Shown: positions 54,067-64,000 of the stretch, one piece after another
How the letters are laid out: each line of letters starts with the position of its first letter
Position numbering within the stretch: the stretch's first letter is position 1
Assembly (NCBI RefSeq): GCF_020099395.1
Contig: NZ_CP083590.1
Coordinates: forward strand, 7,574,930 to 7,638,929
Reading direction: 5' to 3'
DNA from: Streptomyces mobaraensis
GTDB taxonomy: Bacteria > Actinomycetota > Actinomycetes > Streptomycetales > Streptomycetaceae
DNA length: 64,000 nt
Notes under the pieces: generated by a model
What the model saw: only the letters and a program-made list of their open reading frames with translations
Told to the model about the DNA's origin: nothing
Databases searched by the model: none
Translations under genes and position numbers: made by a program

Positions 54067-54432
54067 GTGCTGCAGATCCAGATCGGTGCCGAACGCGCTG
54101 CGGACGCGGACGACCGCCTGGGGCGTGTCACCTTGGGGTGGCGCCCCGGGATGAGCGAGGACGAGGCGTGGGCAGCGGGCCGGGGCATCTGGAAGTTCAA
54201 TGCCGACCGGGCTCTCTCGCAGGACGAGGTGCAGATCATCAACACCGAGGGCACCGTCCTCGTGGTCGCGCGGATCACCGGGATCTCCAAACACGGCGAC
54301 CGCTACGCCCTCGAAGGCACCCTCCTGCACGGCGACCCGCGCGTCGGCCGGCCCACCCCCAGCCCGCACCTTTCCCGTAACCCCGTCACCTACATCCCCC
54401 ATACATCCCCGGGGGAGTGGACAGGTGAGTGA
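54067..54432 (+). CDS. Conserved hypothetical, first gene of the tap/tpg-like operon
   Basis: A 121-residue soluble protein: [38 protein letters not shown], then [20 protein letters not shown] and SRNPVTYIP at the end. It looks like a small alpha-beta DNA- or protein-binding module known to me only as a hypothetical of Streptomyces plasmids. GTG 54067 follows GGGGAGGTGGG; the AT-rich TAACATTGCAACAAGTTGG just upstream is a candidate promoter or operator. Its stop overlaps the start of the Tap-like gene by eight bases, so it is probably part of the same telomere-maintenance operon. Confidence 0.72.
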
Positions 54433-56317
54433 CTTCGATGCGATCGATTCGCTGCTCGCCGGCGTAGGCCCGGAAGCCGAACTCCCCTCTCCTCAGGTCC
54501 GCCAGGTGTTGCGGGAACGGGCCCGGTTGTCCAAGGCGCAGGTGGCGAGGGCGCTCGGGGTGAGTCCGTCTACGGTCGCCGCATGGGAGAGCGGCCGGGA
54601 CCCGGCCGGCGATACCCGCACCAAGTACGCGTATCTGCTGGACGGGCTGGCCGCCAAATGCGCCACCGGCACCGGCACCGCCACCGGCACCGGCACCGCC
54701 ACCGGCGCTGGCACCGGCACCGCCACTGGCACTGGCACCGGCGCTGGCACCGCCACCGGCGCTGGCACCGGCGCTGGCGCTGGCACCGGCACTGGCGCTG
54801 GCACCGGCGCTGGCACCGGCGCTGGCACTGGCACTGGCGCTGGCACCGGCACCGGCGCTGGCACCGGCGCTGGCACCGGCACTGGCGTCGGCGCTGGCAT
54901 CAGCACTGGCACGGTGCCGGTGGCCCTGTCTGGCGTCGAGCCGGCCGTGGCCCAGCCTTCTGCCGCGGCCGACGTTCCGCCGGCTTCCCCGGCGGTGTCC
55001 GAGGAAGGCGGTGAGGGTGACGAGGTGGAGGTCCTCGCGGTGCCTGAGCCGTGTGTGTTGTGCGGGTATCCGGCAGGGACCCGGGTGGCGGGTTTCGCCC
55101 AGCACCTTCACCCGGCCGACTGCCAGGCCGCTACTGCCGCGCCCGACAGGCCCACCGCGCCGCCTGCCCGGCCTGTCACAGCACCTGCCCGGCCTGTCAC
55201 AGCGCCCGCCCGGCCTGTCACCCGGCCGGTCACGGCGCTCGCCCGGTCTCAAGCCGCTTCGGTCGGGGAGCCGCCGTCGCGCGCACCGCGCCCGGCGGCG
55301 CGTCCCTCTGAGCGTTCCCAGGGCCCGTCCCGTCGCGCTTTCCAGGAGCCGTCTGCTCCGGTCGATCTGATCGGCCGGGCGGTGAAGGCCGTGCTCGTCG
55401 AGCATCACGGTGACGTGGAGGCGGCGACGGCCGTACTGGTGAAGCGGGCGATCCCGGATGCGATGCGGCTGCTGGACGAGACCCGTAAGGGCGCCCGTTA
55501 CGACATCATCGCTCACCCGTGGATCCCGGACATCCTCAAGAAGCAGTCCTCCCGTGGCGCGGACCAGATCTGGGAGGCCCGCCCGAAATGGACCCGCCAC
55601 CAGCTGCCGCCCGGGAAGCATGAGGTGACGGCGCTCGATGTCAACGGCGCCTACCTCTCCGCCCTCAAAACCCACCTGCCCCTGGGCCGGCTCGAGCACT
55701 CCGCCGGCCTCCCGCACGACCGCCGCCGCGCCGGCGTCTACCTGATCACCCCGCCCGCCTGGGAACATGAGGCGGTCCTGCCGAACCCGATCGGCCAACG
55801 CGACGAGCCGGGACCGCTGTGGGTGACCGAGCCGACCCTGCGCCTGCTGCTGCGCCTGTCGGGCCCGAAACACGCGCTGTGCGCACCGCCGGAGATCCAC
55901 GAGTCCTACACCTCCGGGGCGACCGAGAACCTGCTGGAGAAGTTCCGTATCGCTTTGAAGGACGCTCGTGACACCGCGATCGCCGAGGGCGACGAGGTCA
56001 CTGTGGAGTATGTGAAGGCGATGTACTCCAAGTTCGTCTCGACGATGGGGGAGTCGAACTATAACCGGGAGCTCTACCGTCCGGACTGGATGCACATCAT
56101 CCGCTCGCAGGCGTTCGCGAACCTGTGGCTGAAGGCGCTCAAGGCCCACGATGAGGGCCTGGCGGTCGTCCGGGCGATGGGCACCGATGAGCTCCACGTC
56201 ATCGGTGACTGGCGCAGTGTCTTCCCGGAGGGCCGTGGTGTTACCGAGGTGAAGGTCAAGGACACCTACACCGCCGGGACCGACACCAACGAGACGGAAG
56301 GGGAGGGAGAGGAGTAG
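54425..56317 (+). CDS. Telomere-associated protein (Tap)-like, atypical
   Basis: A 630-residue protein. Residues about 25-75 are an HTH ([40 protein letters not shown]), as at the N terminus of Streptomyces Tap. Residues 80-165 are almost pure Gly-Thr/Gly-Ala dipeptides, and about 245-268 a threefold APARPVT repeat: long flexible linkers. The C-terminal 260 residues hold [12 protein letters not shown], which resembles the DVN motif of Tap, [19 protein letters not shown] and [10 protein letters not shown]. Length, HTH, the C-terminal motif, a following 190-residue basic gene and closeness to the replicon end argue for a Tap relative that recruits the terminal protein to telomeres. It is divergent from the archetypal Tap, so assignment is by layout and motifs. 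GTG 54425 follows GGGGGAG. Confidence 0.65.
54664..54918 (+). repeat. Hexanucleotide tandem array inside the Tap-like gene
   Basis: About 42 copies of a 6-bp unit of the types GGCACC, GGCACT, GGCGCT and GCCACC, all in frame and coding for Gly-Thr, Gly-Ala or Ala-Thr. It is unstable sequence and likely length-variable between isolates without breaking the frame. Confidence 0.95.
55163..55225 (+). repeat. 21-bp triplicate inside the Tap-like gene
   Basis: Three direct copies beginning at 55163, 55184 and 55205, exactly 21 bp apart, each containing CCCGGCCTGTCAC and encoding PARPVTA. They extend the disordered linker between the HTH and the C-terminal domain. Confidence 0.9.
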
Positions 56318-56889
56318 TGCCGCAGAAGAACCTCGACTTCGGGAAGTTCGGTGCCCGGGGCATCAAGGGCAGCGACGCCGTCGCCCGCACACTCGACGAA
56401 CTCGCGGGCGGTATCGCCACCCCGGTGACCGCCCGGCGCGGCTGGACAGCACGCCTGCACTACCTGACGAAGTCGGGCAAGAGCCGCCAGGCCGCGCGCG
56501 AGGCCGGGCTGACGGTCACCGACCGGACGCTGAAGGCGTGGCTGGAGGGCAAGCGCCAGCCGTCGAAGGCGAACCTGGAACGCATCGATGCCGCCTACCG
56601 GGCGGTGCGCCGGCGCAACGTCGCCCGGCACCTCCTCAGGCGCCTGAACCGTGAGGGACGCGGGACCCGGGTGGAGATCCACCCCCTGAACCAGTCCCAG
56701 GTCCCGCGCCCGCTGCAGCGCGTGGTGGAATACCGCACCCTGAACGTGCGCCGCTGGGACCGCATCATCGGCGCCTGGGCGGCCGGCGACCACCAGGGCC
56801 TCGATGCCGCCTGGGACGACACGATCGTCGACCTGGGCTCCCAATGGGGGCAGTACGAATACGTCACCAACGTCGGCTTCGCCGCGTAG
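56317..56889 (+). CDS. Candidate telomere terminal protein (Tpg-like), atypical
   Basis: A 190-residue basic protein, the same size class as Streptomyces Tpg (about 185). It has an N-terminal HTH-like part: ARRGWTARLHYLTKSGKSRQ, AAREAGLTVTDRTLKAWLEG, KRQPSKANLERIDAAYRAVR. The rest is alpha-beta with TRVEIHPLNQSQVPRPLQRV and GLDAAWDDTIVDLGSQWGQY. Its GTG shares a base with the TAG of the Tap-like gene and follows GGGGAGGGAGAGGAG. The tap-tpg gene order, coupling and size support a terminal protein that caps 5' ends and primes end-patching. It is not the archetypal Tpg sequence, so the assignment is inference. Confidence 0.6.
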   Translation: MPQKNLDFGKFGARGIKGSDAVARTLDELAGGIATPVTARRGWTARLHYLTKSGKSRQAAREAGLTVTDRTLKAWLEGKRQPSKANLERIDAAYRAVRRRNVARHLLRRLNREGRGTRVEIHPLNQSQVPRPLQRVVEYRTLNVRRWDRIIGAWAAGDHQGLDAAWDDTIVDLGSQWGQYEYVTNVGFAA

Positions 56890-60983: not shown

Positions 60984-63478
60984 TCACCAGCGCATTCCGA
61001 GTTGGTTGAGGTCGGTGCGGCGTTGTGCGGTGAGTTTGCCGGCCCGTTTCCTGATGTTGTCGAGGACCATGCCGAGCTTGATGGCCACAGGCCCCCCAGT
61101 GCCGCCCTGCCGGCCCGCGGCCCGCCTTCTGATTCCAGGTGTTCGACGTGCTTCCGAGGTACGTTGAGGTGGCCTTCGCGGGCGTGGAACTGCTGTGCAG
61201 CACGGAGGTTGAGCGCCCACCTGTCGCTCTGTGTGCGTTTCACAGGCGTTCCTCTTTCCTCGGCGGCGTGAGACCAAGAACGTTCTCAAGCAGCCACTGC
61301 TGGACCGGCAGCAGGTCATCCCAGCCAAGGCGACAGCCGGCCGCCCAGCGTCCAGGTCTTCGCCCTGCACGATCACCTCACCTACCACCGTCGGCACCGC
61401 CCCGCCGTCTCGACATGGGCCTGGGCGAGACGGAAGCAGCGCTGCCACCCACATCCCACGCGGGCACCAGCCGGGTCGATCTCCTCCAACGCCTCACGCC
61501 GCGCCTCGGTGAGTGCCTTGACGCTGGATTCGACGGGAAGACCGGCCCCGCGGCGCTCGGCGATGGTGTCCGCGAGCCGGGCCGCAGTCCGCTGATTCTT
61601 CGCCCAGGTCCCCACCGGGTACCCATCCCAGACAGCGGTTGCCGGCGGCAGGAAATGCCCGTGCACAGCGCCCACCCTCGGGCGGCCGCGAGTCCTTCCT
61701 CGAACGCGACGTCCCGGTGGGACCAGACCATCCCGAACCCGTCCAGCTCGGCGACCCGGTCCGCAGCCAGGCGCCCGGCTTGTTGAAACGCCGCTGGTCC
61801 GCCAGCCACGTCCCCAGCGGAAACCCCGCCGGCACCCAGTCGTCCGGGGTGACGAACCCGTACGGCACCCGCAACCGCCGGCACCGGACTCCTTCACATA
61901 CCGCACGCAGGCTTCGATCCCGCGCCGCCAGAAGGCGTTCTCGGCTCAAGCACCCGCAACTTCACAAACGCGCCAGCAGCGCCGGATCCCGCGGCGTGCT
62001 GAACTTCAGCAGCTCCCGCGCGAGCACACTCGGCCCCCGCCCGCCCTCCCACCGCTCTGACCACCTGCGCCAGCCGGCCTCCTCTCAGGCTCGTAACTGC
62101 CGCTGCGCACACGGGGGTCGGCGAGCGCTTCGATGGTGTCGGTGTCGTGGGCGCGGAGAGCCTCGAGAATCTTCGCCAGGGTGCCGTAGCGGAGAGGTCA
62201 GCATGTCGTCCGGAATCTCACCGGTGCAAGGAATACCGGAACGATCAGTGACGCGATCTTCCCCTCCCCAGGCCTCATCCGAGTGCGCGACCGACCATTT
62301 GCACGATATCGATCATCGACCGCGCATCACAAAAGGCGACCGAATCACAATTCGCTGTATCCACGCCTTCGCCCAGTACCTTCACAGAGCTGAGCACACG
62401 CAGCACGGCCGCCGTAGCCCAGGCCCTCACCCGCGTCCGGCCCTCGATGACGTCGGACGCGAACTCCTCCAGCACGACCCTACCGGTGGCCGGGGGGTGC
62501 TCGCCGCACAGCAGCCGGCCCATACGCGCTCCGGCGCCGGGAACCGGCGCGGATCGTCCTCCCACAGCGCTCAGCGGCACCGACGACGCCGGCGGCCATG
62601 GCCTCGGCCTCGCTGACCTTGCCGTGGAAGGCCAGCATCCTCCGCAGCCCCTCCTGCGCCGCCGCGGTCAGGACCCCAGCCTGCAGCGCCGCCAGCCGCA
62701 CCCCGCGCACCGCATCCGCCCCAGGGCCGGCAACCTGGTGCGCCTCGTGAGCTCAGGGTCGGTGATATCGACGCACACGACCTGGTAAGGGGCGACGAGT
62801 CCGCGGCTGATGGCCTCAGACAAGGTGAGCTTGAAGGCCACGGGCCCGAACACGGGGAGCCGGGTCCATGCTCGCGATCAGGCGCGGCTCCTCGCCACGA
62901 CCGCTCCCGGCTGCTTCCAGACACGGGGCCGTGGCGGTCATGTAGAGACGGCGGCTACGGGGATCTTGGTCTGGTCATGTACGGCTGCCCAGGGCTTGCC
63001 TGCATCCCCGCTGGTCCGGTGGGCCTCGTCCACGACCATCAGGTCCCACACCCCCAGCCCTGAGCATGTGCGCGCTGGAGGATGCCGAGGCCGACGGCGG
63101 CGTAGGTGGCGAACACCGTCACCCGCTCCAGCCCCGCACCCACCCCACCAACTCGGCCGGATCCGTCGTACAAGGCATGCCGCCGGAGTCGCCGGCCCGT
63201 AGCGAGCAGACCCGATCACGCCCCCGCACGGCCATCCTCCCGCCATACGGCCGCGGTCTGTGTCAGAAGATCAAGAGTCGGCACCAGAACCAGCACTCGC
63301 CGCGCCCCCAGCTTCCGGGTGGCCTCGGCGGCGATCAGAGTCTTGCCCGAGCCTGTCGCGGCGATGACCTGGGTCCGCAGTCCCCGGCCGGCATGTGCCC
63401 ACTGGCGGGTGTCCGTAGGGCGCGGAGGATGGCGTCGACGGCTTCCACCTGATGCGGGAACAGTTCTTTCCCCAGCAT
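60984..63478 (-). pseudogene. Subtelomeric helicase with helicase-associated repeats, multiply frameshifted
   Basis: Leftward from MLGKELFPHQVEAVDAIL at 63478, pieces in alternating frames give a full superfamily 2 helicase of 800 or so residues. Walker A is VIAATGSGKTLIAAEA; the DEAH box VVDEAHRTSGDAGKPW; then RGLVAPYQVVCVDITDPELT, VLGEGVDTANCDSVAFCDA and motif VI IVQMVGRALG. Helicase-associated repeats follow (VPAGFPLGTWLADQR, WDGYPVGTWAKNQRTA, EALEEIDPAG, GEVIVQGED, KRTQSDRWALNLRAAQQFHA, KLGMVLDNIRKRAGKLTAQR), ending LNQLGMRW. I count at least eight frame changes. Similar helicases sit beside telomeres of Streptomyces chromosomes and plasmids, where some affect conjugal transfer (ttrA-like). 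As sequenced it is not functional. Confidence 0.8.
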
Positions 63479-63830: not shown

Positions 63831-64000
63831 GGAACGCGCGGAGCGCGTTCCGTCAGGCGGATCGCGGAGCGATCCGAGCCGAGGCCAACGGAGTTGGCCT
63901 CCCGGGCCACGGAGTGGCCGGATCTCCGGGACGGAGTCCCGGAGCACCCCACGGAGTGGGGGTGCTCTTCCGCCGCGTGCGGCGGCGCGTCGGGTTGCGG
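63831..64000 (+). other. Terminal palindrome cluster, telomere-like right end
   Basis: Six consecutive hairpins with the loop GGA closed by C-G: 63831-63851 (9-bp stem), 63858-63876 (8), 63882-63900 (8), 63905-63919 (6), 63924-63944 (9) and 63944-63965 (9, with one bulged G), then a seventh, CCGCCGC-GT-GCGGCGG at 63970-63985, and 15 more bases to the window end. C(GNA)G loops on the 3' strand are the form described for Streptomyces telomere overhangs. The outermost bases, read from the end, begin CCGCAACCCGACG and do not match the archetypal start CCCGCGGAGCGGG, so this is either an atypical telomere or one whose last bases are missing. Confidence 0.75.

Follow-up and report, generated by a model that had tools for sequence, protein, structure and literature searches.

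A gtpB-gtpA operon near a Streptomyces mobaraensis chromosome end and a predicted phi29-type polymerase domain in GtpB

The right end of contig C1 (7,638,929 bp) of the two-contig Streptomyces mobaraensis genome forms the window analysed here, a stretch of 64,000 nucleotides. Three overlapping genes lie on its forward strand, about 7 kb short of the right-hand end of the linear chromosome. Judged by homology, the operon is a gtpB-gtpA operon that represents a separate branch of this known family. It probably serves telomere end patching, with a predicted phi29-type domain of GtpB starting the copy from the terminal protein GtpA. The gtpB-gtpA family has been described before; the new elements are the family-B polymerase domain predicted in GtpB and the separate branch. 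No description of such a domain in GtpB or in Tap, the telomere-associated protein of the archetypal Tap-Tpg system, was found in open-licence literature.

The polymerase-like domain of GtpB

The assignment of the GtpB C-terminus to the family-B DNA polymerases is strongly supported as a predicted fold. The modelled part of the predicted structure matches residues ~172-495 of phi29 polymerase, with a palm/fingers fold. With the standard motif names and domain layout of phi29 polymerase, hhalign places motifs A, B and C of GtpB on those of the phage enzyme in order, with YGKFASN of phi29 polymerase as the counterpart of GtpB motif B. When GtpB is compared as a profile with eight phage polymerases, it beats all 150 column-shuffled profiles (z 5.1). 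The two predicted catalytic aspartates, D405 and D588, are aspartate in 58 of 58 GtpB sequences, and Y529, Y534, K536, K610 and K612 are likewise invariant. These sequences make up alignment A2, which holds 57 distinct C-termini of at least 325 amino acids (aa) from 80 loci, plus the window.

Several observations weigh against this assignment. The nominal hhalign probability for GtpB against the phage polymerases is 7-8%, and no family-B match to GtpB was obtained in Pfam or among PDB sequences. Motif C reads GTDE, not DTDS: the first aspartate of DTD is replaced by glycine in the window, and by glycine in 53 and histidine in five of the 58 sequences. A polymerase activity of GtpB is a prediction from the modelled fold and the conserved predicted active-site residues.

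The domain also differs from phi29 polymerase in extent. No exonuclease domain was recognised: residues 77-299 of GtpB gave no Pfam match over cut-off, and the model covers the counterpart of phi29 residues ~172-495. In addition, the stretch from motif B to motif C is shorter in GtpB; phi29 polymerase carries an insertion there, which serves processivity. A polymerase without an exonuclease and with a short stretch between these motifs would fit the synthesis of short primers only.

Archetypal Tap is a clear homologue of GtpB at the level of sequence profiles (hhalign Prob 93%, E 2e-7, 214 columns with motif A aligned, z 15.8, 0/150 shuffles as good). A direct profile comparison of Tap with the phage polymerases found nothing. 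GtpB can therefore be assigned to the polymerases directly, and Tap indirectly, with GtpB as the bridge. Nine of 30 Tap loci failed a motif filter and never entered Tap alignment A4, so that A4 and A8 lean towards motif-bearing Taps; A8 omits L277 and L278, whose N-terminal parts seem to be masked or in the wrong frame, and a further 12 rows of A4 were thinned.

The N-terminal half of GtpB carries a helix-turn-helix (HTH), matching PF13560 (HTH_31) with 38.1 bits against a cut-off of 27, which bears out the original prediction of a 630-residue HTH protein. The N-terminus of the NCBIfam Tap model NF047542 aligns with residues 4-85 at 62.1 bits. This is far under the cut-off of 600, so GtpB falls outside the archetypal Tap model; a tap/tpg-like telomere operon that has strongly diverged from the archetype had been predicted correctly. 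The 120 GtpB homologues listed are mostly 490-550 aa long, compared with 630 aa in the window. Zinc binding by residues C210, C213, H227, H229 and C233 is possible from the sequence, and a similar CxxC...H...C pattern occurs in S. griseus GtpB.

Some GtpB relatives have further N-terminal parts. In L193, L157 and L204, with open reading frames (ORFs) of 739-1010 aa, a DnaB-type helicase domain (PF03796, E 1e-22 to 7e-13) precedes the polymerase-like domain. In L174 (1106 aa), the long N-terminus has no Pfam match.

Family, terminal location and telomere type

The 190-aa protein encoded downstream of gtpB has 922 homologues at E<=0.001, 120 of them listed, and is therefore not a chance frame; no NCBIfam family matched it. 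At the same threshold, and counting partial copies, GtpA matched in 81 of the 199 genomes of the genus, including that of the window. In a tree of relatives, two large groups were resolved, with the window in one of them. S. griseus enters this tree through its group, not with its own protein. A scan of named genomes holding members of the other group yielded 80 loci, including one from Streptomyces griseus NCTC13033, where a 564-aa ORF and a 191-aa ORF overlap by one base. Identity between the window and this type-strain locus is 48.6% for GtpA and 56.3% for the GtpB C-terminal domain. The NCTC13033 genome has one gtpA match and no Tap over cut-off, only weaker matches.

GtpB-GtpA is known from S. 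griseus (Suzuki et al. 2008, via PMC7205883) and from other Streptomyces, and the identity of GtpA to archetypal Tpg is given as ~18% (PMC7205883). The link between the window and S. griseus GtpA/GtpB rests on species, gene order, size and homology. It is a point against the link that the identities refer to the NCTC13033 locus and not to GtpA of IFO13350. The original prediction of a little-described system gives way to a distinct branch of the named gtpB-gtpA family, as known from S. griseus (PMC7205883).

The arrangement of three coupled genes near the end was borne out in its frames, its overlaps and its distance of ~7 kb. The first two ORFs overlap by 8 nucleotides (nt), and the final base of the gtpB-like stop codon also opens the gtpA-like start codon, so that the three genes are probably translationally coupled. 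As expected of the family, gtpB lies directly upstream of gtpA. In relatives the two genes touch or almost touch in many cases, with gaps of up to ~170 nt in others.

Table 1. Features of the operon and of the adjoining telomere (positions in the window)
Feature	Position	Strand	Remarks
Small ORF, 121 aa, GTG start	54067..54432	+	Accessory gene; variable neighbour upstream of gtpB
gtpB-like gene, 630 aa, GTG start	54425..56317	+	HTH, low-complexity linker, CxxC...HxH...C motif, C-terminal polymerase-like domain
HTH, residues 29-76	54509..54652	+	PF13560 and NF047542 N-terminus
Thr/Gly/Ala low-complexity stretch in gtpB	54665..54910	+	Read from sequence
Possible zinc-binding motif C210-x2-C213 ... 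H227-x-H229-x3-C233	55052..55123	+	Read from translation
Predicted family-B (phi29-type) DNA polymerase-like domain, residues ~327-620	55403..56284	+	Predicted fold
D405 codon, predicted catalytic Asp, motif A	55637..55639	+	Aligned to DVNSLYP of phi29 polymerase
D588 codon, predicted catalytic Asp, motif C (GTDELHV)	56186..56188	+	Aligned to DTDSIHL of phi29 polymerase
gtpA-like terminal protein, 190 aa, GTG start	56317..56889	+	With HTH
Right telomere	63831..64000	.	Six GGA-loop palindromes, then GT-loop palindrome and GCGTC

Genes for GtpA are strongly concentrated near contig ends. Among the full-length matches listed on 21 contigs whose length is known and reaches 5 Mb or more, 22 of 33 copies lie within 100 kb of a contig end, compared with 2.1% expected (binomial p 3e-29). 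Within 500 kb the count rises to 31 of 33, the remaining two being internal. A contig with a copy at each end does not give two independent observations. Counted by contig, 14 of the 21 carry gtpA within 100 kb of at least one end.

The gtpA and archetypal Tap families tend to replace each other and often coexist. Tap over cut-off was found in 32 of 81 gtpA-positive genomes, their Tap status being taken from best E-values, and in 105 of 118 gtpA-negative genomes (Fisher p 2e-13). The window genome has no Tap match over cut-off. Exclusion of archetypal tap, a check named in the original prediction, thus holds as a tendency, and the 32 genomes with both families count against strict exclusion.

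The telomere adjoining the operon is atypical, as predicted, with six perfect GGA-loop palindromes at 63831-63961. As single-stranded DNA, its terminal 181 nt fold better than 200/200 shuffles (z -5.4). Among 44 ends compared by BLAST, the nearest is that of genome G051 (74% over 174 columns), which has gtpA and lacks Tap over cut-off. Comparison with the G051 end suggests that the contig stops inside its last palindrome and that the outermost nucleotides have probably been lost.

A telomere signature, a GTA-loop palindrome followed by GCGTC within a few bases, was surveyed in 84 contig ends (stretches of 0.8-2 kb). Thirteen ends, belonging to eight genomes that all have gtpA, carry it within their last 300 nt; it occurs nowhere else in these stretches and in 0/1680 shuffled ends. 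Among ends of gtpA-negative genomes it was found in 0/28, many of these ends having no palindrome array and possibly being incomplete. An exact search across the 199 genomes matched 11, in ten of which the signature lies within ~100 nt of a contig end, and all ten have gtpA. The association is significant (Fisher p 9e-5, or 6e-4 when an internal match in gtpA-negative genome G034 is counted against it). The window lacks the exact signature because of its GT loop.

This association has its exceptions, which weigh against a simple pairing of operon and telomere type. Other telomeres occur in gtpA-positive genomes G067 (GCA), G193 (CTTG), G052 (GCCA/GTCA), and G015 and G159 (GGA without the signature), and G067 and G193 also carry Tap. 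Conversely, GGA loops are present in ends of gtpA-negative genomes G091 and G105, so GGA loops alone are not diagnostic. Co-occurrence of the operon with the same terminal palindromes, likewise named as a check in the original prediction, holds for the ten genomes with an end signature and fails for other gtpA-positive genomes.

Strains in which gtpB-gtpA alone was found have GGA-loop telomeres, and in the same population gtpB-gtpA occurs in all strains, including CTTG-loop strains with an additional tap-tpg set (PMC7205883). The loops of the Sg13350 class (S. griseus IFO13350) are given as GCA in one place and as GGA in another (PMC7205883). In genome G052, both ends of contig C1 (L059, L079) have regular palindromes with GCCA/GTCA loops, together with gtpA and no Tap over cut-off. 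These loops are not among the types named in the telomere literature consulted.

Profile comparison of GtpA with Tpg aligned the HTH region alone (67 columns, Prob 20%), a point against the end-patching account; full-length Tpg homology that includes T114 was not found. The predicted GtpA structure had no PDB match at E<=0.001, with HTH-level similarity only. In Tpg, two short helices are predicted to flank the coil that holds the priming residue T114, and the acidic residue that comes after T114 is required (PMC3572947). In the GtpA model, S175 (codon 56839-56841) lies in a coil between helices 159-173 and 177-180, and this position is serine in 52 and threonine in eight of 60 sequences. Thr117 is present in 52 of the 60, and Tyr49 and Tyr180 are invariant. 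These sequences form alignment A3 (53 of the 71 available GtpA from the 80 loci, six database proteins and the window). In contrast to T114, S175 is followed by glutamine, not by an acid. By conservation and place S175 is the best analogue of T114, and as a guess it may be regarded as a candidate priming residue.

The small first gene is accessory and not a required component, contrary to the suggestion that it could be a third one. Its 121-aa product has no Pfam, NCBIfam or PHROG match. Homologues (E<=0.001) occur in 18 of the 199 genomes, eight of them strong (67-99% identity) and ten weak (32-44%). Seven of the strong homologues adjoin gtpB, and the eighth, in G123, has no gtpB in its 3.3-kb locus. 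In 25 of the 60 gtpA plasmid records listed (153 matched), many of the 25 being from related strains, a homologue precedes gtpA by 1.5-1.7 kb in the same orientation; in the one such record inspected, gtpB lies between the two. Further homologues occur on a circular Arthrobacter plasmid and on pBD2, a linear Rhodococcus plasmid, where the homologue forms part of a 1.3-kb gene that adjoins a gene for a helicase.

Several other observations concern copies of these genes. Copies of gtpA without a gtpB match in the fetched DNA occur at L018, L023, L026, L028, L030, L031, L035, L040, L041, L133, L141 and L142, several of these loci containing only ~1.5 kb of upstream DNA; lone gtpA copies resemble the lone tpg genes of archetypal systems. 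Loci L174, L175 and L176, labelled Microtetraspora glauca, Streptomyces pseudovenezuelae and S. xylophagus, have identical ORF coordinates, lengths and identities, which reflects a shared element or contamination. In the window genome, the left end of contig C1 (18-1144) falls within an inverted, 85%-identical piece of gtpB, which indicates a diverged copy on the other arm, where the assembly appears to stop. Contig C2 (29,134 bp) is probably a linear plasmid. Its terminal inverted repeat of 141 bp is perfect, its ends are rich in C at the 5' side and in G at the 3' side and show no GGA palindromes, and its own gtpB-gtpA pair, from the other branch, lies less than 1 kb from an end (GtpA ~48% identical to the window's). 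Near the telomere, among short frames on the reverse strand at 62275-62580, there is a weak helicase C-terminal match (PF00271, E 2e-4, just under cut-off), perhaps a decayed ttrA-like gene.

Proposed mechanism and alternatives

At the chromosome end, an internally initiated fork would leave a 3' overhang able to fold into the hairpins seen in the sequence. GtpB would bind this overhang via its HTH and recruit GtpA. Its polymerase domain, through D405 and D588, would then join the first nucleotide to a serine or threonine of GtpA and copy the outermost palindrome, after which other polymerases would fill the remainder, as proposed for Tap/Tpg. The operon, its family, its terminal location and its association with a telomere type are established by the comparisons above, as are the predicted fold and the conservation of predicted active-site residues; catalysis, the priming residue and DNA specificity are steps that the model infers. 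A helicase may be needed to clear bound Tap (PMC4513846), and the DnaB-type helicase in some GtpB relatives fits this suggestion.

In one unlikely reading, GtpB only binds the telomere as a scaffold, its family-B fold being degenerate and inactive, and a separate polymerase, for example of the Y family, nucleotidylates GtpA. Such a scaffold would agree with the unusual motif B and with a motif C that lacks the first aspartate of DTD. Moreover, replication of linear replicons in Streptomyces requires DinB1 or DinB2, which have been proposed to act in extension (PMC4513846). However, the residues at the catalytic aspartate positions are invariant, as are nearby lysines and tyrosines. Tap, a clear GtpB homologue, and Tac of plasmid SCP1 suffice in vitro to attach nucleotides to their respective terminal proteins, Tpg and Tpc, and to extend them briefly without another polymerase (PMC4513846).

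The operon could also serve the telomeres of another replicon, such as a linear plasmid, or be a relic, the chromosome relying on something else. The gtpB-gtpA pair on the 29-kb contig with the 141-bp terminal repeat, the diverged gtpB piece at the left contig end and the tpg pseudogenes on record (PMC3572947) speak for this idea. It is improbable nonetheless, given intact frames of 630 and 190 aa, a genome without Tap over cut-off, and a telomere that most resembles that of G051, where gtpA likewise occurs without such a Tap. Least probable is that the 190-aa protein is an ordinary transcriptional regulator and the operon a regulatory module of subtelomeric mobile DNA. Most named database entries do call its homologues regulators, and an HTH is present, but the gene adjoins that of a polymerase-like protein and its location is terminal. 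The structural match to an unrelated regulator family that the original prediction named as contrary evidence did not appear, the 190-aa model having HTH-level similarity only. Frequent occurrence on circular replicons, named there as well, has been answered in part: three of three plasmid records opened, out of the 153 matched, are linear, and these are a sample only.

Implications and comparison with known systems

The preferred account, in which GtpB starts synthesis from GtpA, addresses an open question, namely which enzyme starts protein-primed end patching in Streptomyces and what its origin is. For the S. griseus 13350 and Sg2247 telomere classes, the proteins that patch the ends have been called elusive (PMC8743542). 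Actinobacteria are described as typically without B-family polymerases in PMC12926913, in whose main text neither Tap nor terminal protein occurs as a term; the B-family polymerase survey PMC7544198 lacks the word Streptomyces in its main text. No DNA polymerase motif was seen in Tap or Tac, and independent, convergent evolution was proposed (PMC4513846).

It is likely that the telomere-associated proteins of Streptomyces are exonuclease-less relatives of the protein-primed family-B polymerases of viruses and plasmids, co-opted for chromosome capping; this follows predicted structure for GtpB and homology for Tap. If so, protein-primed telomere replication in Streptomyces shares descent with that of phi29, tectiviruses and adenoviruses and did not arise convergently; each GtpB variant fused to a helicase would then be an end-replication machine in one piece. 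Targets for active-site mutation would follow from a family-B domain in GtpB and, through homology, in Tap. Such a domain would also connect bacterial telomeres with viral protein-primed replication, and provide a search profile for missing end-patching enzymes.

The closest known system is S. griseus GtpB-GtpA, which shares gene order, sizes, the HTH, and homology along GtpA and the GtpB C-terminal domain. The window differs from it by identities of ~49% (GtpA) and 56% (GtpB C-terminal domain), a separate branch and an extra small gene upstream. With archetypal Tap-Tpg the system shares its operon logic, the Tap N-terminus and, by profile comparison, the C-terminal domain. In contrast, GtpA aligns with Tpg at the HTH only, GtpB is far under the Tap cut-off, and archetypal loops are mostly GCA (PMC7205883). 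Tac-Tpc of plasmid SCP1 can be likened to it by description, as a two-gene terminal protein system at atypical telomeres (PMC4513846).

Phi29-type protein-primed polymerases resemble GtpB in predicted fold and in the order of motifs A, B and C. GtpB differs from them in its N-terminal HTH, the lack of a recognised exonuclease domain and a shorter stretch between motifs B and C; it is also encoded by a chromosomal gene and presumably patches ends rather than copying a whole genome. A related idea has a precedent outside Streptomyces: pAL1.101 of the Arthrobacter linear plasmid pAL1 is reportedly (in a 2010 paper) an enzyme that nucleotidylates the terminal protein, with partly conserved family-B motifs at its C-terminus. 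This protein is said to be far larger and to include parts of helicase and primase type.

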